Shown here piece by piece: positions 5,672-40,760 of a stretch of 64,000 nucleotides of DNA; within the stretch, counting starts at the first letter, position 1; each line of letters begins with the position of its first letter. Below the pieces are notes generated by a model, which searched no databases, was not told where the DNA came from, and worked only from the letters and a program-made list of their open reading frames with translations. The stretch comes from Cytophagaceae bacterium (lineage in GTDB: Bacteria > Bacteroidota > Bacteroidia > Cytophagales > Spirosomataceae), in assembly GCA_027491195.1 (NCBI GenBank), contig JAIXWQ010000008.1:62001-126000 (forward strand), in the 5' to 3' direction. Position numbers and translations under genes: made by a program.

Positions 5672-6912
5672 GAATACTCGCTTTATTATTGTTTTTTAGC
5701 CTTCAGGCTTACGCACAAGACACCACTCAGCACATCATCGCTGGACGTTCAAATGCCCTAAAACAACAAGAAAAGCCTTATGTTATTTTGATTTCAGCAG
5801 ATGGATTTCGCTCTGATTTTTCTCATAAATACGAAGCAAAATTCCTGCAATCGAAAGAAAAATCCGGTGTAAAGGCAAGCTATATGCAAGCCTCCTACCC
5901 TACACTCACCTTCCCTAATCATTATTCCATTGCTACAGGATTGTATCCAGCGCACCATGGTTTAGTAGATAATACCTATTTAGATGTGAATTCTGGACAA
6001 GAATACCGGATGTCGAATAAGAAAATGGTAGGCGAAGGTAAATGGTATGGTGGAACACCGCTTTGGGTATTAGCCGAGAAACAACAGATGATGGCTGCCA
6101 GCTTCTACTGGGTGGCCTCTGAAGCAAATATTCAGGACACCTATCCTTCTTACTACTACGTCTACAACGAAGTTATTGATATCAAAACGCGTATTGCACA
6201 AGTCAAGAATTGGCTTTCCCTACCTGCAGACAAGCGTCCGCATTTAATTACCTTCTACTTCCCAGAAGTCGATCATGACGCACACGAATTTGGGCCAGAA
6301 GATCCCCGCGTTCAGCATTCTGTCCAATTTGTGGATCAGGCTATTGCAGATCTAGAAGCGGCCGTAGCACCATTAGGTCTTCCGATTAACTTCGTTTTCG
6401 TCTCTGATCATGGAATGAAAGAGGTGGATAATGTGAATACAATTACCAAACCCGCACCATTAAACACAACTGCCTTTCAGGTACCATGGGGTGATGCCTT
6501 ATTGCATGTTTATGCGAAAGATCCCTCTAAAATCGATTCAACTTACCAAGAATTAAAGAAAGATACGCGTTTTACAACCTTTCGCCTTGATGAGACTCCG
6601 GCACATTGGCACTACCGTAAAACAGATGATCGATATAATCGCCTAGGTGATATTTTATTAGTCCCAAAACTCCCACAGGTATTCAACCTCTCTACCCGTA
6701 AAACCTCGAAAGGGAAACACGGTTTCGACCCAATGCTTCCTGAAATGCGCGCGAGCTTTCAAGCTTGGGGGCCTGCAATTAAATCAGGACTCACTTTAGA
6801 AGGATTCGAAAACGTGAACGTCTATCCTTTTGTCGCCAAAATCTTAGGTTTAAGCTATGATCCTAAGTCGATCGATGGGAATCTGCAGGTTTTGCAGAAA
6901 GCTTTAAGATAA
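5668..6912 (+). CDS. ectonucleotide pyrophosphatase/phosphodiesterase (alkaline phosphatase superfamily)
   Basis: This is a secreted or periplasmic type I phosphodiesterase of the NPP family that hydrolyses nucleotide or phosphodiester substrates. The start at 5668 (ATGA overlap with the helicase stop) gives a clean signal peptide, MRILALLLFFSLQAYAQ. Zinc-site motifs are all present: ISADGFRSDF (first Asp), YPTLTFPNHYS with the nucleophilic Thr before FPNH, EVDHDAHEFGP (Asp/His), VSDHGM (Asp-His), and GKHGFDP (His). The length of about 414 residues matches bacterial NPPs. The substrate cannot be read from the sequence. Confidence 0.9.
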   Translation: MRILALLLFFSLQAYAQDTTQHIIAGRSNALKQQEKPYVILISADGFRSDFSHKYEAKFLQSKEKSGVKASYMQASYPTLTFPNHYSIATGLYPAHHGLVDNTYLDVNSGQEYRMSNKKMVGEGKWYGGTPLWVLAEKQQMMAASFYWVASEANIQDTYPSYYYVYNEVIDIKTRIAQVKNWLSLPADKRPHLITFYFPEVDHDAHEFGPEDPRVQHSVQFVDQAIADLEAAVAPLGLPINFVFVSDHGMKEVDNVNTITKPAPLNTTAFQVPWGDALLHVYAKDPSKIDSTYQELKKDTRFTTFRLDETPAHWHYRKTDDRYNRLGDILLVPKLPQVFNLSTRKTSKGKHGFDPMLPEMRASFQAWGPAIKSGLTLEGFENVNVYPFVAKILGLSYDPKSIDGNLQVLQKALR

Positions 6913-6918
6913 GCGCGA

Positions 6919-7785
6919 TCAAGCGAATATCTCCTCTACATGCTTTTTTATATTGGCAGCAATTTTATCTGTAGGTAAATCATTGGCATCAGTACCAAAA
7001 GGATCTTCTATTTCCTCTGCAATTAATTCTAAACTGGCCAATACATAAAAGATAAAAACCACCACCGGTATCACATAATATCCTAGCGTAAACACGTAAC
7101 TAAAAGGTAAAGTCATCACATAGATGAAAATAAATTTCTTAATGAATGCGCTGTACGAATAGGGTATTGGCGTATTTTTAATTCTTTCACAAGCCCCACA
7201 TACGTCCGTAAACGACTGCAATTCAGCATTTATATATAAAAGTTGATGGCCGCTTAATCTACCCGTATTATAGAGGTCATTTGACTTTTTCATGATCATC
7301 TTAGCCACCTGATTAGGCTTGTGCTTGGTATGGTCTATTTGCAAATCCAAGCCTTCAAAAAGGACAAGACCTGATTCATCATCTGCTAAATATTTTTGAA
7401 GTACAAAGGCATATAAAGGGATGACTTTCTGATAAAAGTGACGATCAACTTCATTATCTAAAATCGCAGCTAATTTCAAGGCTAAATTTCTACTAGAGTT
7501 CACTAATGATCCCCACAATTTTCTTCCTTCCCACCAACGATCATAGGCCGTATTAGTTCTATAGGCAAGTAACAAAGAGATGACAAATCCCAACATACCG
7601 TGCATAATGGATATATTCTTCACTTTACTATCCTCACCTAAGTGAAAATATTCCATTTCCAAAAAGCAAATAAGTCCAGAATATGCCCCTATAAAGAACA
7701 TTAGAGGCAATAATTTTCGAAATGTATCTGACTGATGTAACTTAAAAATAAAGGTGATCCAGTCTTTTGTATTGTATTGTACCAT
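6919..7785 (-). CDS. bestrophin family membrane protein (UPF0187)
   Basis: This is a pentameric anion-channel-like inner-membrane protein. The 288 residues contain the family signature AYRTNTAYDRWWEGRKLWG followed by NSSRNLA, about four transmembrane segments (LLPLMFFIGAYSGLICF, the MLGFVISLLLA stretch, and two near FIYVMTLPFSYVFTL), and the C-terminal acidic EEIEDPFGTDANDLP that is conserved near the gate. I chose the ATG at 7785. The longer frame upstream would be translated through the tRNA-Arg gene and its terminator and is not credible. It begins only about 18 bases after the tRNA terminator. Confidence 0.9.
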   Translation of the reverse strand: MVQYNTKDWITFIFKLHQSDTFRKLLPLMFFIGAYSGLICFLEMEYFHLGEDSKVKNISIMHGMLGFVISLLLAYRTNTAYDRWWEGRKLWGSLVNSSRNLALKLAAILDNEVDRHFYQKVIPLYAFVLQKYLADDESGLVLFEGLDLQIDHTKHKPNQVAKMIMKKSNDLYNTGRLSGHQLLYINAELQSFTDVCGACERIKNTPIPYSYSAFIKKFIFIYVMTLPFSYVFTLGYYVIPVVVFIFYVLASLELIAEEIEDPFGTDANDLPTDKIAANIKKHVEEIFA

Positions 7786-7802
7786 AGGCCTGTAAATTAG
7801 GC

Positions 7803-7835
7803 AAAAAAAAAGACCTGTAAAAATACAGGTCTTTT
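7803..7835 (-). terminator. rho-independent terminator of tRNA-Arg(ACG)
   Basis: On the minus strand, a perfect 12-bp stem (AAAAGACCTGTA pairing with TACAGGTCTTTT) with a TTTT loop is followed by an uninterrupted U tract. It directly follows the tRNA 3' end. Confidence 0.9.
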
Positions 7836-7843
7836 GATTTCTG

Positions 7844-7917
7844 TGGTCGCGTAGGGATTCGAACCCCAAACCTTCTCATCCGTAGTGAGATGCTCTATCC
7901 AATTGAGCTACGCAACC
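7844..7917 (-). tRNA. tRNA-Arg (anticodon ACG)
   Basis: The 74-nt gene folds as a complete cloverleaf on the minus strand. Acceptor GGTTGCG pairs with CGCGACC (one G-U), the D stem is GCTC/GAGC, the anticodon stem is TCTCA/TGAGA with loop CTACGGA (anticodon ACG, reading CGN through inosine), and the T arm has GGTTCGAATCC. The discriminator is A, and CCA is not encoded. It has its own promoter-like element upstream and its own terminator downstream. Confidence 0.95.
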
Positions 7918-7935
7918 ATTGCCCTTTCGGGATTG

Positions 7936-7943
7936 CAAAGGTA
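7936..7943 (-). promoter_or_regulatory. predicted -7 element of the tRNA-Arg(ACG) gene
   Basis: On the minus strand the sequence is TACCTTTG, an exact TAnnTTTG match that ends 18 bases before the tRNA. The -33 region is less clear. Confidence 0.55.
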
Positions 7944-7991
7944 GAATTTCTTTGGCAAAATGAAAAACTATCCCCTAAAATTTTCTAAAAA

Positions 7992-8762
7992 TTATTTCCC
8001 TTTGAAATGAGGAGCCCTTTTCTGCACAAAGGCCGTCACACCCTCTGCGAAGTCTTGGCTATGCCCTAAGATGGTTTGCTCTTCCGCCTCAGAGGCTAAA
8101 GTTTCTGCTAAATCCTGATTATAAGCTCTTTGTAATGAGCGTTTCATTAAAGAGATGGCTAAAGTCGCTTTCTTTGAAAAGGCTAACGCAACTTCATGCA
8201 CTTTTGACTCCCAATCTAGCTCGGAAACTACTTCTGCCACCAATCCGATTTCTTTTGCTTCCTTCGCCCCTACTTTACGCCCTGTCGTCGCTAAATCAAA
8301 TGCGCGGTGATAACCTACAGACTGCATCAGAAAGGCGGTGGAACCAGCGTCCATGGCTAAACCGATTTGGACAAATAATTCAGAGAAATACGCATCTTCC
8401 TTCGCGATGAGATAGTCACAGGCTAAGGCCAAACTACACCCAGCACCAGCCGCTACCCCATTAATCGCACCTATAACTGGTTTATTCAATCCTCTCAAGG
8501 CAGAAATCATCGGGTTATAAGTTGACCTCAACACATTCCCAAGATTAGGATCTGTCACACCGGATTTCAAATCTGCTCCTGAACAGAAGGCCTTCCCTTC
8601 GCCCGTGATGACTAAAACACGGACTTCATCGTCTATTTGGGCAACTTCCGCTACTTCTCTGATCTCATGAATTAAACCCGCATTTAAGGCATTATATACC
8701 TCAGGACGGTGTAAAGTTAAGGTCCAAATGGGGCCGTTGCGGTGAAGCTTTAGGTAATTCAT
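7992..8762 (-). CDS. enoyl-CoA hydratase/isomerase family protein, PaaG-like
   Basis: This crotonase-fold enzyme acts on acyl-CoA thioesters. The oxyanion-hole motifs are CSGADLKSG (near residue 63) and GVAAGAGCSLALACDY (near 105). The segment FSELFVQIGLAMDAGST carries the Asp conserved in PaaG-type isomerases in place of the usual hydratase Glu pair. An isomerase of the 1,2-epoxyphenylacetyl-CoA or 2,3-dehydroadipyl type is therefore more likely than a plain hydratase, but no other phenylacetate genes are nearby. I chose the ATG at 8762 (MNYLKLHRNG). The upstream extension is encoded by heptad repeats. Confidence 0.85.
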   Translation of the reverse strand: MNYLKLHRNGPIWTLTLHRPEVYNALNAGLIHEIREVAEVAQIDDEVRVLVITGEGKAFCSGADLKSGVTDPNLGNVLRSTYNPMISALRGLNKPVIGAINGVAAGAGCSLALACDYLIAKEDAYFSELFVQIGLAMDAGSTAFLMQSVGYHRAFDLATTGRKVGAKEAKEIGLVAEVVSELDWESKVHEVALAFSKKATLAISLMKRSLQRAYNQDLAETLASEAEEQTILGHSQDFAEGVTAFVQKRAPHFKGK

Positions 8763-8826
8763 ATTGAATGGTAAATGGTGAATGAGTGGCATTAAAATGA
8801 TAAATGGTAAATGGTGAATGCTAAAT
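8763..8826. repeat. heptanucleotide array, left inverted copy (GGTAAAT type)
   Basis: On the plus strand: ATTGAAT, GGTAAAT, GGTGAAT, a 15-nt linker (8784-8798, GAGTGGCATTAAAAT), then GATAAAT, GGTAAAT, GGTGAAT, GCTAAAT, all in strict 7-base phase. It is the inverted counterpart of 9271-9334, with the same linker. It begins directly at the start codon of the PaaG-like gene. Confidence 0.9.
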
Positions 8827-8846
8827 GAATAGAATCTATTTAGTGT

Positions 8847-9200
8847 TCAATTCATGTTTTGCTTAACTGTTATCAAAATTCTTGTAATGATATGCAAAAT
8901 ATCGTTTGCATCTTTCAAGGGTAGAAATAATTGTTCGGAGGATATATAATTCGATGCTTCCAAAAGCTTTAGCCAATAAATAGATTCATTAATTTCTTTT
9001 TGAGCAATACTCATTTTATGTCTAAAATCTGCCCTGGATTCAGCATGGTCAGCTTCCATCACCATCGCACCCACAGATGTGGAGCAGCGTAATAATTGCT
9101 TAGATAAGACGTATTCCCTTTCTTGTTGAAGTAATTTATAAACAGAAATAATTTGGAGAGAAAATGCGAAGGTTTTTGTTTGGATAAGATTAGTTGCCAT
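8847..9200 (-). CDS. four helix bundle protein (23S rRNA intervening-sequence protein family)
   Basis: The protein has 117 residues, the usual size of the TIGR02436/IVP family. Four amphipathic helices are evident, with the family-like segments AFSLQIISVYKLL, SKQLLRCSTSVGAMVMEADHAESRADFRHKMSIAQKEINE (seen in two consecutive helices) and ESIYWLKLL. Relatives are encoded inside 23S rRNA intervening sequences or, as Avd, assist diversity-generating retroelements. Their basic surface suggests nucleic-acid binding, but the function of free-standing copies is not established. I chose the ATG at 9200. The gene sits between inverted heptad arrays and is the only gene between rpoN and the PaaG-like gene. 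Confidence 0.88.
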   Translation of the reverse strand: MATNLIQTKTFAFSLQIISVYKLLQQEREYVLSKQLLRCSTSVGAMVMEADHAESRADFRHKMSIAQKEINESIYWLKLLEASNYISSEQLFLPLKDANDILHIITRILITVKQNMN

Positions 9201-9240
9201 AGTTTTTGGCAGAAAACTAAAGAAAATTAGGCCCAATTCA

Positions 9241-9256
9241 TATCAACATTTTGATA
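9241..9256. repeat. short palindrome upstream of the four-helix gene
   Basis: TATCAA-CATT-TTGATA is a perfect 6-bp inverted repeat with a 4-nt loop. It lies 41 bases before the four-helix gene start and just inside the right heptad array. It could be an operator or part of the element's end. Confidence 0.5.
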
Positions 9257-9270
9257 AAAACTGCCCCCTC

Positions 9271-9334
9271 ATTTACCATTAACCATTTTAATGCAGCTCA
9301 TTTACCATTTACCATTCACCACTTACCATTTTTA
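9271..9334. repeat. heptanucleotide array, right inverted copy (ATTTACC type)
   Basis: On the plus strand: ATTTACC, ATTAACC, a 15-nt linker (9285-9299, ATTTTAATGCAGCTC), ATTTACC, ATTTACC, ATTCACC, ACTTACC, ATTTTTA. The last unit, read on the minus strand, starts with the TAA stop codon of rpoN. The linker matches the reverse complement of 8784-8798 at 13 of 15 positions, so the two arrays are inverted copies. Confidence 0.9.
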
Positions 9335-10759
9335 AAGGTGTTTTCTCAGCCTCGCCACCGGAATACCCAATTGATCGCGGTATTTAGCCACGGTTCTGCG
9401 TTTCACGACGAATCCGCGTTCCAGTAGTATTTGCTCTAAATCCTCATCGGAATGGGGTTCCGAGCTAGGTTCTTGCTCGATGATTTCGCGCAAGATATTT
9501 TTCACTTCGCGAGTGGAGAAGTCTTCACCGGATTCGTGGGTGATGCCTTCGGAGAAGAAGTATTTTAGGGGATAGATGCCAAAATCAGTTTGGACTGACT
9601 TGGCCGAAACAACCCTAGAAACAGTGGAAATATCCATCTCAATCATCGCCGCTATTTCCTTCATCTTCATTGGTTTCAAAACTGCTTCGTCCCCGGTACT
9701 AAAGAAATCAAATTGTTTAGCAACAATACTCTCCATCGTTTTCATCAAAGTACCCTGACGCTGCTGAATGGCAGAAATGAACCAAGAAGCAGAATCTAAT
9801 TTATGCTTGATAAAAGTAACGGCTTCCTTGATATCCTTTTGCTGCTTATCGCCTTTATCATAGGTCTGAAGCATTTCTTGGAAGGCCTTAGATACCCGAA
9901 GTTCAGGGGCATTTTTGCCGTTGATCTTGATCTCAATCTTTCCATTTTGATTCGTAATGATGAAATCAGGCTGCAAATAGGGGGCAATTGGAGCGTCGTC
10001 TCCCCCACCTGGTTTAGGGTTCAAATGGGTAATGACTTGCATCGCCTTTTTAAGCTCCTCTTCGGTGATGGCAAGTTTGGAGAGTAAAACACTAAAATGC
10101 TTTTTGGAAAACTCCTCAAAAAAATCATCAATCAAGCGAATAGCTAATGCATGAGCTGGTGTATCCGATTCCTTGCGATGTAATTGTAATGACAAACATT
10201 CTTGTAACGAACGGGCAGCAATTCCGGCTGGATCTAGTGATTGCACTTTAAACAAGACCTGCTCCACTTCGTCATAATCGGTTTCAAAGCCTTGTGTGAA
10301 GGCAAGATCGTTCACGATGCTTTCAATGTTTCGGCGTAAATAGCCGTCCTCTTCTAAAGAACCGATGATTTGCTGTGCTAAAACTTCTTCGCGCTCGGTG
10401 CGAACAACGTAGCGGATTTGGTTTAACAAATACTCCTGAGTGCTAGATTCGGTGGCCAAAGGGCGTTCGCGCGTCTCCTCATTCGGATCATACGAATCAC
10501 CAGCCATCTTGTAACCGGCATAGTCATCCTGTAGATAATCCCCCACCTCCATCTCCTCGCGCTCTAAGTCCTCGATCGTTTCGCGTGGGACATCTTCAGC
10601 AGAGTGGTCTAATCCTTCCTCAAGAGCCGGGTTATCCTCCAATTCCTCCTCGATTCTGGCAGCTAGTTCAGCCGTCGGAATCTGCAACAACTTGATATAC
10701 TGTATCTGTTGTGGAGAAAGGTTCTGTTGTTGATTCTGTTTTAAGGATAATCCCTGCAT
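9332..10759 (-). CDS. rpoN: RNA polymerase sigma-54 factor
   Basis: This alternative sigma factor directs RNA polymerase to -24/-12 promoters and needs an AAA+ activator. At 475 residues it is of family length. The Gln/Leu-rich region I is at the N-terminus (LSLKQNQQQNLSPQQIQYIKL) and is followed by an acidic region II (about 45-105). The core-binding and HTH domains follow, and the RpoN box KRRTVAKYRDQLGI lies near residues 452-466. A match to TAnnTTTG is present upstream. No activator gene is in the window. The stop codon falls inside the first unit of a heptad array. Confidence 0.96.
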   Translation of the reverse strand: MQGLSLKQNQQQNLSPQQIQYIKLLQIPTAELAARIEEELEDNPALEEGLDHSAEDVPRETIEDLEREEMEVGDYLQDDYAGYKMAGDSYDPNEETRERPLATESSTQEYLLNQIRYVVRTEREEVLAQQIIGSLEEDGYLRRNIESIVNDLAFTQGFETDYDEVEQVLFKVQSLDPAGIAARSLQECLSLQLHRKESDTPAHALAIRLIDDFFEEFSKKHFSVLLSKLAITEEELKKAMQVITHLNPKPGGGDDAPIAPYLQPDFIITNQNGKIEIKINGKNAPELRVSKAFQEMLQTYDKGDKQQKDIKEAVTFIKHKLDSASWFISAIQQRQGTLMKTMESIVAKQFDFFSTGDEAVLKPMKMKEIAAMIEMDISTVSRVVSAKSVQTDFGIYPLKYFFSEGITHESGEDFSTREVKNILREIIEQEPSSEPHSDEDLEQILLERGFVVKRRTVAKYRDQLGIPVARLRKHL

Positions 10760-10777
10760 CGTCTGTATAATCTACAC

Positions 10778-10785
10778 CAAAGATA
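10778..10785 (-). promoter_or_regulatory. predicted rpoN promoter (-7 element TATCTTTG)
   Basis: On the minus strand, TATCTTTG matches TAnnTTTG and lies 18 bases before the rpoN ATG. A TTTG (10805-10802) sits 16 bases further upstream as a candidate -33 element. Confidence 0.5.
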
Positions 10786-10833
10786 AGCCGATTTTTAATT
10801 ACAAATAAATAAAATAAATCGGTTTTTTATCCG

Positions 10834-10841
10834 TATTTTTG
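10834..10841 (+). promoter_or_regulatory. predicted asnS promoter (-7 element TATTTTTG)
   Basis: TATTTTTG matches TAnnTTTG. It is divergent from the rpoN promoter. It argues that the TTG at 10849 is not the asnS start, because the message would then be nearly leaderless. Confidence 0.45.
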
Positions 10842-10878
10842 AGGGTTATTGCCTCTATTGAGGCCTTTTCCTTTTAAA

Positions 10879-12324
10879 ATGCCCGAGTCATTTATGCAAA
10901 TCAAAGAAATACTAGGTTTAACACCCACGCAGCAAAGCATCGTCGTGAAAGGTTGGGTGCGTACAAAAAGAGTATCCTCCTCTGTCGCTTTTATCGCCAT
11001 CAATGATGGGTCGACAATTCATAATATCCAAGCCGTCGTTTCTGAGGGCACTGTCTCAGAAGAAACCTTGAAATTAGTGACGACTGGTTCTTGCATCGCC
11101 GTGACGGGTAAATTAATTGCCTCACAGGGTCAAGGACAATCGGTAGAAGTAGAAGTGGTTTCCATCGAAGTGTATGGAACTGCAGATCCTGAAAAATACC
11201 CTTTACAGCCTAAGAAGCACTCTTTAGAGTTCTTACGTGAGATTGCGCATTTACGCCCACGTACGAATACTTTCTCTGCGATTTTACGTATTCGCCACGC
11301 ATTGGCATATGCGATACATACCTATTTCAACAACAACGGTTTCTTCTATTTGCACACGCCTATCATCACGGGATCGGATGCGGAAGGGGCTGGAGAGATG
11401 TTCCGTGTGACGACTTTGGACCCTATCAATCCTCCATTAACGGAAGAGGGTAAAGTGGATTACAAAGAGGATTTCTTTGGAAAAGAAACGAATTTGACGG
11501 TTTCTGGCCAGCTAGAGGGTGAATTAGGGGCGATGGCTTTGTCCAAAGTCTATACGTTCGGCCCTACTTTCCGTGCAGAAAATTCAAACACAACTCGTCA
11601 CCTAGCTGAGTTCTGGATGATCGAGCCTGAGGTCGCTTTTTATGAATTAGCTGATAATATGAATTTAGCGGAGGACTTCACTAAATTCTGTATCAAATAC
11701 GCTTTAGATAACTGTGCGGACGATATCGCCTTCCTAGAGAAGCGTTTAATCGAAGAAGAAAAGAATAAAAAGAAAGAAGAGCAGTCAGAAATGACCTTGT
11801 CTGAGAAGTTACGTTTCGTGACAGAAAATGAATTCGAACGCTTAACTTACACCGAAGCGATCGACATTTTATTGAATTCAAAGGCGCACAAAAATGGCAA
11901 ATTCGTTTATCCAGTAGAATGGGGAATCGACCTTCAATCGGAACACGAGCGTTATTTAGTGGAGAAACACTTCAAAAAACCAGTTATTCTAACGAACTAC
12001 CCGAAAGACATCAAAGCCTTCTACATGAAGCTAGATGAGGACGGGAAAACAGTTCGTGCGATGGACGTTTTATTCCCGGGCATTGGTGAAATCATCGGTG
12101 GATCTCAAAGAGAAGACGATTACGCGAAGCTTTTGCAACGCACGAAAGAGGTAGGTATCGAAGAAGAATCGATCTGGTGGTACTTAGAAACACGTCAATT
12201 TGGTTCAGCGCCACATGCTGGTTTCGGACTTGGATTTGAGCGATTAGTGTTATTTGTGACGGGTATGAGTAATATTCGCGACGTAATTCCATTCCCTCGT
12301 ACACCTAAGACGGCTGAATTTTAA
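10879..12324 (+). CDS. asnS: asparaginyl-tRNA synthetase
   Basis: This class IIb synthetase charges tRNA-Asn in the cytoplasm. The N-terminal OB-fold anticodon domain (about residues 15-110) contains VKGWVRTKR and FIAINDGS. The catalytic domain carries motif 2 around [15 protein letters not shown] and motif 3 [10 protein letters not shown] near the C-terminus. A Lys/Glu-rich insertion ([13 protein letters not shown]) lies before motif 3. I chose the ATG at 10879. An ATG at 10894 (MQIKEIL) is equally plausible, while a TTG at 10849 is not favoured. The length of about 480 fits bacterial AsnRS with the insertion. Confidence 0.95.
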
Positions 12325-16023: not shown

Positions 16024-16043
16024 AAGCACAAAAAACTTTAACT

Positions 16044-16078
16044 AAAGTATAAAGCACAAAGAATAAAGTATAAAGTAC
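16044..16078. repeat. heptanucleotide array (AAAGNAT type) after the MATE gene
   Basis: Five units in exact phase on the plus strand: AAAGTAT, AAAGCAC, AAAGAAT, AAAGTAT, AAAGTAC. Looser related sequence (AAAAGCACAAA) continues back to the MATE stop codon at 16021-16023. The same unit types recur after tilS and, inverted, after porD. Confidence 0.9.
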
Positions 16079-16081
16079 GTG

Positions 16082-16113
16082 AAAAAAGGGCTCGAAATTC
16101 GAGCCCTTTTTTT
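16082..16113 (+). terminator. bidirectional rho-independent terminator after the MATE gene
   Basis: GGGCTCG (16088-16094) pairs with CGAGCCC (16100-16106) around a 5-nt loop, with six A before and seven T after. It can work on both strands. Confidence 0.9.
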
Positions 16114-16173
16114 GGTATCATGAAATGCTGATTTACATTACCTAAATTCATCGCCAAAGGCGATTCAAACTTT

Positions 16174-16208
16174 ATTCTTTTTGCTTTATACTCTATTCTT
16201 TAAATCTT
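16174..16208. repeat. heptanucleotide array, inverted (ATTCTTT type)
   Basis: Units on the plus strand: ATTCTTT, TTGCTTT, ATACTCT, ATTCTTT, AAATCTT. This is the reverse complement of the AAAGNAT type and faces the array at 16044-16078 across the first terminator. A small GC hairpin (ATCGCCAAAGGCGAT, 16150-16164) precedes it. Confidence 0.8.
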
Positions 16209-27110: not shown

Positions 27111-28457
27111 ATGCTGGAAGATTTTATCCATTTTGTCCAAAAAGAGAATTTATTCCAAACCGATCAGAAAATTTTGGTCGCTGTTAGCGGCGGAATCGAC
27201 TCGATTGTATTGAGTAAACTGTTTTCTTCGGCCAAATTTAATTTCGGCATCGCTCATGTGAACTTCAGCCTTCGGGGAGAAGAGTCCTTAGCGGACGAGG
27301 TATTTGTGAAGAAATTCGCCAAAACCTTAAAAGTACCCTACCACACTATTTGCTTCGACACCAACGCCTTCGCTGTACAGGAAAAAATCTCCACCCAAAT
27401 GGCGGCCCGCATTTTGCGCTACCAATGGTTTGAAGAAATCCGAGTAAAAGAAGGTTACGATTACATCGCCACCGGTCACCATCAACTCGATAGTGCCGAA
27501 ACGATGCTCATTAACCTCGTAAGAGGTAGCGGAATCGCCGGTTTTCACGGAATTCCTGTTAAATCGGGTCACTTAATCAGACCCCTTTCCTTTGCAAGTC
27601 AAGAAGCCATTTTTGATTTCGTTGTCTCTCATAAATTAGCTTGGAGAGAGGATTCTTCCAATGAATCCACTAAATACCAGCGCAATTTTATTCGGCACGA
27701 GATCATGCCCAAATTCCAGGAGCTAAATCCCCAGTTTGAGCAAACGCTATCCTCTACCAGCGCAAAAATCAAAGGGATCGAATCTTGGTTACAAGATGAA
27801 CTTCAGGAATTTAAGAGCGAATCCTGCACGACAGATTCCGCTGGAAACACCTGCGTTAAATTGCCTGCCATCTCTTCCAAAACCACCGTTTTACTCACAG
27901 AATTATTGCTTTCATACCACTTTAATTCAGCTAGTATTGAAGCGATTTTACAGGCAGATAAAGTAGGTGCTATCTTTGAATCCCCCAGCCACTCGTTAAA
28001 TATCGATCGCGGCCAATGGATTATCAGCTTAAAGAGCCAAGCAGATTATAAACCCATCGTCATTTCAGAAGAAGATGAGGTCATCACCATTGGCAATCAA
28101 GAATTGCACATTTTCATCGAAGAAAGAACAGCAGACTGGAAAGCCATCACAGATCCAAACGTAGCCTGCCTGGATGCAGACACCTTGGATTTCCCTTTAG
28201 AAATTCGCAAAGTGCAGGAAGGCGACTGGTTCTGCCCACTTGGGATGAATCAAAAGAAATTGATATCTGATTTCTTAACGGACAAAAAAGTCCCCCTTGC
28301 CATTAAAAAGAACACCCAAATCCTCTTAAGCAAAGGCTCCGTTGCCTGGATTTTAGGACAACGTATCGATAACCGCAATAAGGTGACAGATAAGACGGAA
28401 TTGGTGGCGGTGTTTGAATTAAAAAGCGCAGCTTTTGACTCAAACATAAAAGCATAA
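27111..28457 (+). CDS. tilS: tRNA(Ile)-lysidine synthase
   Basis: TilS converts C34 of tRNA-Ile(CAU) to lysidine, an essential decoding change. The PP-loop SGGIDS is at about residues 26-31, followed by FRGEES-like FSLRGEESLADE and ATGHHQLDSAETMLINLVRGSG. The N-domain ends near 220, a linker domain follows, and the C-terminal substrate domain has QEGDWFCPLGM and KKVPLAIK. I chose the ATG at 27111 instead of an upstream TTG at 27087. The stop TAA at 28455-28457 straddles the first units of a heptad array. Confidence 0.95.
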   Translation: MLEDFIHFVQKENLFQTDQKILVAVSGGIDSIVLSKLFSSAKFNFGIAHVNFSLRGEESLADEVFVKKFAKTLKVPYHTICFDTNAFAVQEKISTQMAARILRYQWFEEIRVKEGYDYIATGHHQLDSAETMLINLVRGSGIAGFHGIPVKSGHLIRPLSFASQEAIFDFVVSHKLAWREDSSNESTKYQRNFIRHEIMPKFQELNPQFEQTLSSTSAKIKGIESWLQDELQEFKSESCTTDSAGNTCVKLPAISSKTTVLLTELLLSYHFNSASIEAILQADKVGAIFESPSHSLNIDRGQWIISLKSQADYKPIVISEEDEVITIGNQELHIFIEERTADWKAITDPNVACLDADTLDFPLEIRKVQEGDWFCPLGMNQKKLISDFLTDKKVPLAIKKNTQILLSKGSVAWILGQRIDNRNKVTDKTELVAVFELKSAAFDSNIKA

Positions 28458-28480
28458 AGAATAAAGCACAAAGTATAAAG
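28449..28480. repeat. heptanucleotide array (AAAGNAT type) at the tilS stop
   Basis: Units in phase: AAAGCAT, AAAGAAT, AAAGCAC, AAAGTAT, AAAG. The tilS stop codon lies at the join of the first two units. A GC hairpin (CCCCTGCGGGG, 28488-28498) follows. Confidence 0.9.
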
Positions 28481-28543
28481 ATTGAATCCCCTGCGGGGAT
28501 AGTCTCTGAAATGTTTCCAACGAATTCATTTCCTTCGGACTTT

Positions 28544-28571
28544 ATTCTTTATTCTTTGTGCTTTATGCTTT
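28544..28571. repeat. heptanucleotide array, inverted (ATTCTTT type) downstream of porD
   Basis: Units: ATTCTTT, ATTCTTT, GTGCTTT, ATGCTTT. It is the reverse complement of the array at 28449-28480 and runs into the palindrome over the porD stop codon. Confidence 0.9.
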
Positions 28572-28619
28572 ATCGCATTTTACTAAAATAGCCTCTGGCT
28601 ATTTTAGTAAAATGCGATA
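28571..28619. repeat. 23-bp perfect palindrome covering the porD stop codon
   Basis: 28571-28593 is the exact reverse complement of 28597-28619, with a TCT loop. The right arm encodes the last residues and TAG stop of porD, so the left arm is an inverted copy of the gene's own 3' end. It has no U tract right after it, so if it stops transcription it is not a canonical terminator. It would strongly protect the 3' end of the mRNA. Confidence 0.92.
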
Positions 28620-39165: not shown

Positions 39166-40443
39166 ATGAAAAACAACGTAGTACATCGTACGGATGAGGA
39201 ACAAGAAACCGCGGTCTTAGTCGCAGTCACTTCTCAAAAACAAAATGCCGAACAAACGGCCGAATACCTCGCGGAATTAGCTTTTTTAGCTTCTACTTCC
39301 GGCGTCGTGACGCTTCATAGTTTTACCCAAAACTTAGCGAAACCAGATAACAAGACCTACGTAGGAAAAGGAAAATTCGAAGACATCATGGCCTATGTCA
39401 TCGAGAAGGATGTGGATATGCTCATCTTTGACGACGATTTAAGCCCATCCCAGGTGCGTAATATTGAGTTTAATATTCAGGAATACGGCAAAGAAGTTAA
39501 AGTATTAGATCGCAGTTTGTTGATTCTCAACATTTTTGCCTTAAGGGCCCAAACCGTTCAAGCCCGTACCCAGGTAGAACTCGCACAATACCAATACATG
39601 TTACCGCGATTAACCCGCATGTGGTCTCACCTTTCCAAACAACGTGGTGGCGTAGGTATGCGTGGTCCAGGGGAAAAAGAATTAGAAACGGACCGTCGTA
39701 TCGCGAACGACCGTATCGCCTTTTTAAAGGATAAATTAGAAGCCATCGACAAGCAATCCTACACCCAGCGCAAAAACCGCGACCGCATGGTCCGCGTTTC
39801 ATTAGTGGGTTATACAAACGTAGGCAAGTCCACTTTGATGCAAAAACTAGCAAAAACAGACGTTTTTGCTGAAAATAAACTATTTGCCACAGTAGATTCC
39901 ACAGTTCGTAAGGTAGTCTGGGAAGGCATTCCTTTCTTATTAACGGATACCGTAGGTTTCATTCGTAAGCTCCCTACCCTCTTGATCGAGTCGTTTAAAT
40001 CTACTCTAGATGAGGTTCGGGAAGCTGATGTGTTATTACACGTGGTAGACATTTCCCATCCGAACTTTGAGGAGCAAATCGAAGTAGTTCAAGGCATTCT
40101 TAATGAAATGGGCGTAGGAGATAAACCCACCATCCTCGTTTTCAATAAAATTGACCTCTTCCCTGTCGAGGACATTTTCTTCGAAGGATCTGAAGTGGGC
40201 ATCGATGGCGAAGTGGAATTAAGTAAAATGGACCGTGTGACTGCCTTTTTAAAGCGCACTCACTGGCAAACCAATACCCCCAAAACCGTTTTCATCTCTG
40301 CAGAACAACGCAGCAACTTAGCCGAACTTCGCGAGACGATCATGGGACAATTAAAAGACAAGCACATGCAGATTTTCCCGAACTGGCTGGAGGGAAATCA
40401 CTTGATGGGGCATAGTGATGGGTATATGCCTGAAGGAGAGTAG
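39166..40443 (+). CDS. hflX: GTPase HflX
   Basis: HflX is a ribosome-associated GTPase that splits stalled or heat-damaged ribosomes. The N-terminal HflX domain (about 1-195) contains VGKGKFEDI and MRGPGEKELETDRR. The G domain has GYTNVGKSTLM near 214-224, DTVGFIRKLP (G3) and VFNKIDLF (G4). At 425 residues it is of family length. It begins only eight bases after the atpG terminator. The stop codon is embedded in a heptad array of AGAGTAG units, and the tRNA-Arg(CCT) gene begins 42 bases after it. Confidence 0.95.
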   Translation: MKNNVVHRTDEEQETAVLVAVTSQKQNAEQTAEYLAELAFLASTSGVVTLHSFTQNLAKPDNKTYVGKGKFEDIMAYVIEKDVDMLIFDDDLSPSQVRNIEFNIQEYGKEVKVLDRSLLILNIFALRAQTVQARTQVELAQYQYMLPRLTRMWSHLSKQRGGVGMRGPGEKELETDRRIANDRIAFLKDKLEAIDKQSYTQRKNRDRMVRVSLVGYTNVGKSTLMQKLAKTDVFAENKLFATVDSTVRKVVWEGIPFLLTDTVGFIRKLPTLLIESFKSTLDEVREADVLLHVVDISHPNFEEQIEVVQGILNEMGVGDKPTILVFNKIDLFPVEDIFFEGSEVGIDGEVELSKMDRVTAFLKRTHWQTNTPKTVFISAEQRSNLAELRETIMGQLKDKHMQIFPNWLEGNHLMGHSDGYMPEGE

Positions 40444-40478
40444 AGAGTAGAGAGTAGAGAGTAGAGATTATAGAGTGG
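40437..40478. repeat. heptanucleotide array (AGAGTAG type) at the hflX stop
   Basis: AGAGTAG occurs four times in a row, then AGATTAT and AGAGTGG. The hflX stop codon TAG is bases 5-7 of the first unit. The same unit type occurs at the lpdA stop. Confidence 0.92.
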
Positions 40479-40485
40479 ATATATT

Positions 40486-40557
40486 GGCGCTGTAGTTCAA
40501 CGGATAGAATAGGCGTTTCCTAAACGCTAGATGCGGGTTCGATTCCCGCCGGGGCCA
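40486..40557 (+). tRNA. tRNA-Arg (anticodon CCT) with an acceptor-stem mismatch
   Basis: The 72-nt gene folds as a cloverleaf: D stem GTTC/GAAT, anticodon stem GGCGT/ACGCT with loop TTCCTAA (anticodon CCT, reading AGG), T arm GCGGG-TTCGATT-CCCGC. The acceptor GGCGCTG pairs with CGGGGCC except position 4 (G opposite G). Wild type would be expected to have C there. No TAnnTTTG lies in the 42 bases upstream, which is all heptad repeat, so expression may depend on hflX transcription. It is probably functional, but the mismatch is unusual. Confidence 0.85.
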
Positions 40558-40573
40558 CCCAGGGGGAAGCAGA

Positions 40574-40615
40574 AGAGCGCTCCTTCTAAACGCTAGATGA
40601 GGCTGGGGTCGCATG
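40574..40615 (+). pseudogene. degenerate tRNA-like fragment
   Basis: CTAAACGCTAGATG (40586-40599) repeats tRNA-Arg(CCT) positions 40520-40533 exactly. Just before it TCCTTCTAA resembles the loop of an Arg tRNA with anticodon TCT. Neither a full anticodon stem nor a T arm can be formed, so this is a partial, decayed copy. Confidence 0.5.
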
Positions 40616-40626
40616 ACGCGGAGCGT

Positions 40627-40659
40627 CAGTAATCAGTAGCTAGTAGTCAGTAGTCAGTT
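40627..40659. repeat. heptanucleotide array (AGTCAGT type)
   Basis: Five consecutive units in 7-base phase read TCAGTAA, TCAGTAG, CTAGTAG, TCAGTAG, TCAGTTC. It starts at the end of the hairpin GACGCGGAGCGTC (40615-40627). Confidence 0.85.
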
Positions 40660-40672
40660 CGAAGGACGAAAC

Positions 40673-40710
40673 ATTTACCATTCACCATTTACCATTTACC
40701 ATTTACCATT
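40673..40710. repeat. heptanucleotide array (ATTTACC type)
   Basis: ATTTACC, ATTCACC, ATTTACC, ATTTACC, ATTTACC, then ATT. It is the same unit as the arrays that frame the four-helix gene at 8.8-9.3 kb. Confidence 0.92.
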
Positions 40711-40760
40711 CCTTATGCTTTGTGCTTTGAATAAGCGGAGCGTCAGTCCGGAACAATTCT

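Follow-up and report, generated by a model that had tools for sequence, protein, structure and literature searches.

RAYT genes occur together with repetitive extragenic palindromic (REP) and REPIN repeats (Nunvar 2010, PMC2817692; Bertels and Rainey 2011, PMC3116915). The 23S rRNA intervening sequence of Coxiella is described as having 28-bp terminal inverted repeats and tandem GACAGAT heptamers directly upstream of an open reading frame (ORF) of the S23/IVP family; RNase III cuts the inverted-repeat stem, and the ORF is described as decaying (PMC4990558). The same source describes a Xanthomonas relative of IVP as a homopentameric ring. Intergenic heptamers are reported as GGGAATC in Xanthomonas, with 70 and 75 convergent pairs, as GGGGA(C/T)T in Nostoc (PMC4692102), and as TAACTGA in Beggiatoaceae, Cyanobacteria, and Bacteroidetes (PMC4679880); both papers quote slippage as the explanation for 7-nucleotide (nt) repeats. 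IVP is also described as homologous to Avd, an essential accessory protein of diversity-generating retroelements (PMC10053308). Here we analyze 64,000 nt from a Cytophagaceae bacterium (assembly GCA_027491195.1, contig JAIXWQ010000008.1, positions 62,001 to 126,000 of the forward strand), referred to as the window and numbered from its first letter. Between rpoN and ech it holds an IVP/S23 gene enclosed by two inverted arrays of degenerate heptamers. To our knowledge, the IVP/S23 family has no known function.

The same kind of repeats accompanies this family in widely separated bacteria and points to a small DNA element that may propagate itself and has so far been overlooked. The over-represented heptanucleotide repeats of bacteria lacked a tied gene and the IVP family lacked a function; both are now paired in several phyla. 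The pairing makes both testable, the question being whether IVP binds, copies, or spreads the arrays. We found no paper tying IVP genes to heptamer arrays in the open-access literature, a scope that leaves out preprints and most subscription papers.

Anatomy of the locus in the window

The gap is bounded by the start codon of ech (8760-8762) and the stop codon of rpoN (9332-9334), with both genes on the minus strand. The arm downstream of the IVP gene (8765-8828) consists of AATGGTR heptamers at 8767-8784 and 8795-8828 flanking a 15-nt linker at 8784-8798 (reverse strand ATTTTAATGCCACTC). The upstream arm (9270-9331) is inverted to it, with heptamers at 9270-9288 and 9299-9331 flanking a 15-nt linker at 9285-9299 (ATTTTAATGCAGCTC). 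The heptamers are degenerate and read as the ATTTACC type on the other strand. Inverted segments of 49 nt each (8765-8813 and 9270-9318) are 90% complementary, and a period-7 tandem repeat runs through 8795-8827 and through 9299-9331. The complementarity score of 39 exceeds the maximum of 26 among 1000 dinucleotide-preserving shuffles and of 20 among 1953 pairs taken with the same geometry from other parts of the window, so the match is not due to chance. Read as RNA, the minus strand folds far better than its shuffles (z -5.4), with the arms in a single long stem.

The IVP gene is intact, lies on the minus strand at 8847-9200, and encodes a four-helix-bundle protein of 117 amino acids. We assign it to the IVP/S23 family from profile matches to PF05635 (Pfam, E 3.9e-23, 82.1 bits, curated cut-off 33.8) and TIGR02436 (NCBIfam, E 2.1e-24, 85.8 bits, cut-off 24). 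The Pfam scan of the protein returned PF05635 only and no transposase family. Two relatives with solved structures, 2RLD and 2GSC, were each deposited with five chains; the name of a Xanthomonas IVP with a solved structure, XCC0516, is absent from the accessible text of PMC4692102. Median ratios of nonsynonymous to synonymous substitution (dN/dS) of 0.05-0.09 across five IVP ortholog sets (0.09 for that of the window gene), with dS often saturated, indicate purifying selection. The family was found in 300 of 392 sampled Bacteroidota genomes.

The earlier note on this DNA, made from the letters alone, had described two inverted arrays filling the gap, linkers at corresponding places in both copies, and a single 117-residue IVP gene between them. 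Coordinates, complementarity, and shuffles confirm the arrays, the linkers are as described, and both profiles agree on the gene. The note carried the gap to 9334; it ends at 9331, since the next three positions are the rpoN stop codon.

The flanking genes were identified with Pfam as a PaaG-like enoyl-CoA hydratase/isomerase gene (ech, 7992-8762, minus strand) and as the sigma-54 gene rpoN (9332-10759, minus strand). A leader, read from the sequence, extends on the minus strand from the upstream arm to the IVP start codon (9201-9269). A promoter in the leader was considered and is unsupported: TAnnTTTG occurs in 7 of 48 leaders of relatives, near the 5.1 expected by shuffling, and is not enriched. 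Rfam returned no credible RNA family at 8400-9700; its two matches are both far below gathering scores.

Association of IVP genes with inverted heptamer arms

Inverted arms were called at a score of at least 20, and period 7 at 19 or more of 28 matches at lag 7. Counts refer to IVP frames and not to loci, with the split frame L079 counted twice among relatives and L182 and L202 counted twice in the combined cross-phylum and Bacteroidota-sample set. Frames with less than 300 bp of either flank were excluded (7 of 94 in relatives, 10 of 116 in the broader sets). Control genes (n=373) came from 20 stretches of 20 kb plus the window.

A profile search of the 2.49-Mb genome returned four IVP genes above the cut-off. 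The earlier note had proposed checking whether the other IVP genes carry arrays, and all four have inverted arms (scores 31-60). The arms match each other at each gene, with three heptamer types among the four: AATGGTR at the window gene (L003), AAAGNAT at L004, and AGTCG-type at L001 and L002. ATTTACC, the type named in the note, is thus not the defining heptamer, as the heptamer varies between loci and between strains. Three of the four genes pass the period-7 threshold on both flanks; L002 fails because small hairpins interrupt its units.

IVP matches are present in 43 of 59 relatives. Inverted arms flank 78 of 87 IVP frames in these genomes versus 32 of 373 other genes, and period 7 on both flanks occurs in 51 of 87 versus 0 of 373. 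A score of at least 20 is reached by 90% of upstream and downstream arms paired within their own locus versus 12% of sampled pairs mixing loci. The spacing is specific: lag 7 is found in 102 of 174 flanks, lags 2-6 and 8-13 in 0 to 5, and the harmonics appear at 14, 21, and 28. The evidence is strong that IVP genes are associated with inverted heptamer arms, and the arrangement is real and general. Lag-7 arrays number 2 in 149 kb of IVP-less genomes versus 9 in 180 kb of IVP-bearing genomes of the genus, and 0 in 240 kb versus 14 in 400 kb across the phylum, densities that carry little weight because GC content differs (0.49 versus 0.37 in the phylum sets).

Unit structure varies among the arms. 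One IVP group (L002, L035, L036, L039, and L041) has arms of TTAGTCG units broken by many different small hairpins. In L020, L021, L025, L028, L029, L030, and L038 some arms have longer units (AGTCCGAAGGGAAAG-like) and failed the lag-7 test despite strong inversion.

When 213 arms are phase-aligned and read towards the gene, the heptamer starts with A, then A or G, then T, then mostly T or G, followed by three variable positions, giving a shared inward motif A-R-T-N4. The fit to this motif is 3.04 per arm versus 2.38-2.42 after permuting positions. The inward strand shows a positive GC skew in 85% of the 112 upstream arms (negative in 10%) and in 80% of the 101 downstream arms (negative in 16%). 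From the shared motif and the skew it follows that the arms have a direction.

Breadth across phyla

A scan of species genomes gave a cross-phylum set of 80 loci, among the matches listed, out of 580 confirmed stretches. Their record titles name Bacteroidota, Cyanobacteria, Clostridia, Gammaproteobacteria, Chloroflexota, candidate phyla, and others; many are metagenome bins, and the species label may be wrong for several. Among the 76 listed frames with full flanks, a lag-7 array is present on at least one flank in 65 and on both in 40, and inverted arms occur in 47. With the Bacteroidota sample pooled in, lag 7 is found in 103 of 212 flanks, and lags 2 to 6 and 8 to 13 never in more than 6. 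After all 193 frames are weighted by clusters at 60% identity, 61.1 of 82 have an array on one flank or more, 37.4 have arrays on both, and 54.2 have inverted arms.

A matched control of neighboring genes in the cross-phylum loci (L144-L223, n=127: both flanks 19, either 87, inverted 21) is contaminated because the flanks of these neighbors include IVP arms. A cleaner control with 250-bp flanks, small at n=33, gave 3 with both, 8 with either, and 3 inverted, versus 39, 64, and 45 of 76 IVP frames, respectively.

Arrays lie on both sides of plasmid-borne IVP genes in Bernardetia, Euhalothece, Treponema saccharophilum, Dolichospermum, Nostoc commune, and Anabaena cylindrica, and in Monoglobus and Chlorohelix one side is strong and the other weak (8 named examples of 25 matches inspected). 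The signal reaches Cyanobacteria, Clostridia, Chloroflexota, and one spirochaete. On plasmids, array-flanked IVP genes L385, L387, L389, and L390 sit inside defense operons (hsdS/hsdR; helicase/methylase; cas2/cas1).

Site histories in relatives

We compared 30 rpoN-ech loci of one genus (from 31 matches). IVP with arms is present in nine, inverted in one (L108), and the frame is broken in L103 and L108. Four loci hold an array-free gene pair, a HigB-like toxin and a helix-turn-helix (HTH) protein (Pfam), five have an array-free gap of 14-51 bp, three have another palindromic repeat, and five have no adjacent ech within reach. Presence of IVP differs among close relatives: of nine loci that share at least 96% identity with the window in the RpoN C-terminus, four have IVP and arms, four the gene pair, and one (L095) a gap of 15 bp. 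In none of the nine do IVP or arrays occur without the other. An alignment with relatives had been suggested in the earlier note as a search for an empty site, and the short gap of L095 supports a discrete element.

The toxin/antitoxin-like pair belongs to the close relatives L096, L097, L100, and L101; L100, with a gap shorter by 231 bp, lacks most of the toxin gene. In L118, L120, and L121 a palindromic repeat in tandem, roughly 25 bp long (GTAGAGACGCGATACCTCGCGTCTA), replaces the heptamers.

At a further site, between hemE and engB, 30 loci were compared (from 37 matches) and 15 have IVP, 14 of them with both neighbors in reach. Four of these 14 carry the gene in inverted orientation with respect to hemE, as expected from recombination between inverted arms. 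The neighbors are divergent, and the arrays lie between two stretches that look promoter-like by eye (TTACCTTTG). Heptamers vary by strain (AGTCGCT, AGTAGTC-like, AGTCCGAAGGG-like, and others). Arms of the same locus match with a mean score of 54.4 versus 30.5 across the 14 strains, and the own pair ranks first in 5 strains and never below seventh. Both arms at one site therefore change heptamer together between strains.

Arrays without a gene

The module on the L004 side consists of an arm, a core with two hairpins, and an inverted arm, and has 115 matching pieces in the genome. Twenty pieces are at least 120 bp long, and 18 of these lie away from any IVP gene. The module search located two in the window: an inverted array pair of the dispersed AAAGNAT family at 28446-28580 (module match 28449-28572) and an array element of this family at 16040-16201 (module match 16043-16201). 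AATGGTR arrays occur at 15 further places in the genome and include 5 inverted pairs, all convergent; the pattern search, allowing 1 mismatch, gave 60 matches and its backwards control 19. Inverted doublets without a gene are thus dispersed between genes (18 module copies and 5 AATGGTR pairs), as REPINs are.

The 28449 site was compared in eight relatives. L373-L375 have CAAAGNN in both arms and the core seen in the window, L378 has AGAGTA-type arms, L381 shows AAAG-type heptamers on just one side, the site holds other sequence in L379 and L380, and L376 could not be resolved. The heptamer type found here is among the arm types of the L004-group IVP genes in five of seven genomes (that of the window, G030, G023, G019, and G002) and not in G021 and G008. 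Ten genomes of the clade are rich in the three heptamers of this comparison; counts in the other 28 are close to zero, apart from AGAGTA in G012 and G003. The L004-group arm type is enriched in its own genome by a mean log2 of 0.58, a value reached by 48 of 5040 label permutations in seven related, mostly draft genomes with kinship ignored.

Some gene-less pairs (L357, L360, and L364) have two different heptamer types, with the arms still facing each other. At 40426-40730 of the window, stacked arrays of GAGAGTA, GTCAGTA, and CATTTAC, a mosaic of three heptamer types, lie on both sides of a tRNA-Arg gene without IVP.

Interpretation

We favor the reading that one IVP gene and two inverted 7-nt arrays form a minimal selfish element of the REPIN/RAYT kind, with IVP binding, host-aided copying, and spread included, and give it a probability of about 0.5. 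Its selfish, REPIN-like nature is likely and as yet unproven. In the mechanism we propose, the arms pair into a long hairpin with the IVP gene in the loop. IVP, a pentameric ring in a solved relative, would bind the inward A-R-T-N4 heptamers of this hairpin as single-stranded DNA or RNA, and may aid replication or repair enzymes of the host in copying the arms and spreading array pairs, by which the element would transpose. Copying of an IVP-bound hairpin by host enzymes would explain why the arms change together. Gene-less pairs may be non-autonomous derivatives that IVP serves in trans, a role proposed for RAYTs towards REPINs. If this is true, dispersal of the REPIN kind occurs in an element that lacks a transposase, and what IVP does inside 23S rRNA intervening sequences may also find an explanation. 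More tentatively, and with the odds against it, IVP and A-R-T-N4 arrays could make up one selfish class across phyla, in which a pentameric protein without its own transposase drives spread and coordinated rewriting, the published heptamers are non-autonomous copies, and the 23S intervening sequences are a branch resident in rRNA.

Several results weigh against the favored reading. Among control genes with at least 100 bp on both sides, a weaker control, the inverted score reaches 20 in 11 of 42, and period 7 on both flanks in 0 of 42. The Bacteroidota sample, which covers the 30 best-scoring IVPs (L224-L253), has an array on at least one flank in 14, on both in 5, and inverted arms in 10. At rpoN-ech, 4 of the 30 loci, in more distant relatives, carry TAATAGG-type arrays without IVP. 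At hemE-engB, 10 of 13 resolvable IVP-less loci keep an array above the threshold of 19 (L281 scores 18 and two score 11; 2 further loci are not resolvable), and this weakens a strict one-unit reading: the discrete unit of gene and repeats in the earlier note holds at rpoN-ech, where a short gap lacks the element, and fails as a strict unit where arrays persist without IVP. The note had counted arrays in relatives lacking the gene as evidence against the link, and such evidence is present in part. The matched arm change at the gene-less 28449 site means that concerted change needs no IVP in cis. Three of the ten array-rich genomes (G007, G014, and G027) have no L004-group IVP among the relatives' matches, and G008 shows no enrichment of its IVP arm type. 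This analysis gave no sign of transposition, of a target duplication, or of a catalytic site.

Gene-less arrays are common, and they change arms together at the 28449 site; both facts fit an account in which polymerase slippage, the published explanation for 7-nt repeats (PMC4679880, PMC4692102), makes the arrays, template switching at the quasi-palindrome keeps the arms alike, and IVP hitchhikes by homologous recombination between like arrays. This rival stays serious, and we consider it unlikely because it leaves unexplained why arms occur on IVP genes in particular across several phyla, why the A-R-T motif and inward polarity are shared, and why IVP arm type is linked to the genome-wide type. 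The fold of the minus strand, the position of rpoN, IVP, and ech on one strand, and the Coxiella precedent, with its stem cut by RNase III and heptamers upstream of the ORF (PMC4990558), agree with a unit that acts as RNA like the 23S intervening sequences, where a read-through transcript would be cut by RNase III at the arm stem and its fate tuned by IVP or the IVP RNA. A DNA hairpin would yield equal covariation, however, and at hemE-engB a transcript of the divergent neighbors would not span both arms, so the RNA account is less likely there and improbable overall.

Purifying selection on IVP and the promoter-like stretches around the hemE-engB arrays would also suit a DNA- or RNA-binding regulator whose sites at host genes are the arrays and whose unit is kept for host benefit. 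The variable presence of IVP among close relatives and its absence from the matches of 16 of 59 genomes argue against this, and we rate it slightly below the RNA account. Lowest of all we place an unlinked enzyme that moves the arrays with IVP as its accessory, either a reverse transcriptase as in diversity-generating retroelements, to which the homology with Avd (PMC10053308) points, or a Y1/HUH transposase, a family for which no search was made. The genome's only RVT_1 match lies on contig C4 (the window is on C6), and its best PADLOC model is CRISPR-associated; we rejected it as a partner.

Comparison with known systems

The window protein shares a homologous fold family with Avd as described. 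It differs in that no reverse transcriptase adjoins the IVP gene: none is among the identified ORFs of 6000-12000, where template and variable repeats were not sought as such. The published heptamers are likewise intergenic 7-nt arrays, and all fit A-R-T-N4 after rotation or reversal made in this analysis. Unlike the arrays here, they are tied to no gene in the accessible text of PMC4692102 and PMC4679880, from which the terms "23S" and "four helix" are also absent.

The earlier note had likened the locus to the 23S rRNA intervening sequences and to RAYT genes with REP repeats, and both analogies fit. With the former it has in common the protein family, the terminal inverted repeats, and, in Coxiella as described, heptamers upstream of the ORF (PMC4990558). 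It differs in lying between rpoN and ech, outside the 23S rRNA gene, in having longer heptamer arrays as arms on both sides, and in purifying selection on its IVP gene, where the source describes a Coxiella ORF in decay.

The likeness to RAYT/REP systems, as far as the cited descriptions go, lies in one gene between inverted repeats (arm, gene, arm at the window locus), in dispersed gene-less pairs, and possibly in a correlation of the gene with repeat abundance, as the arm type tends to match the genome-wide one in seven related genomes with one exception. The repeats of IVP genes are tandem heptamer arrays that switch sequence, whereas REPs are single palindromes. The element is not a RAYT because its protein is not a transposase: IVP is a four-helix bundle, and RAYT is a tyrosine transposase (Y1, IS200/IS605 type).
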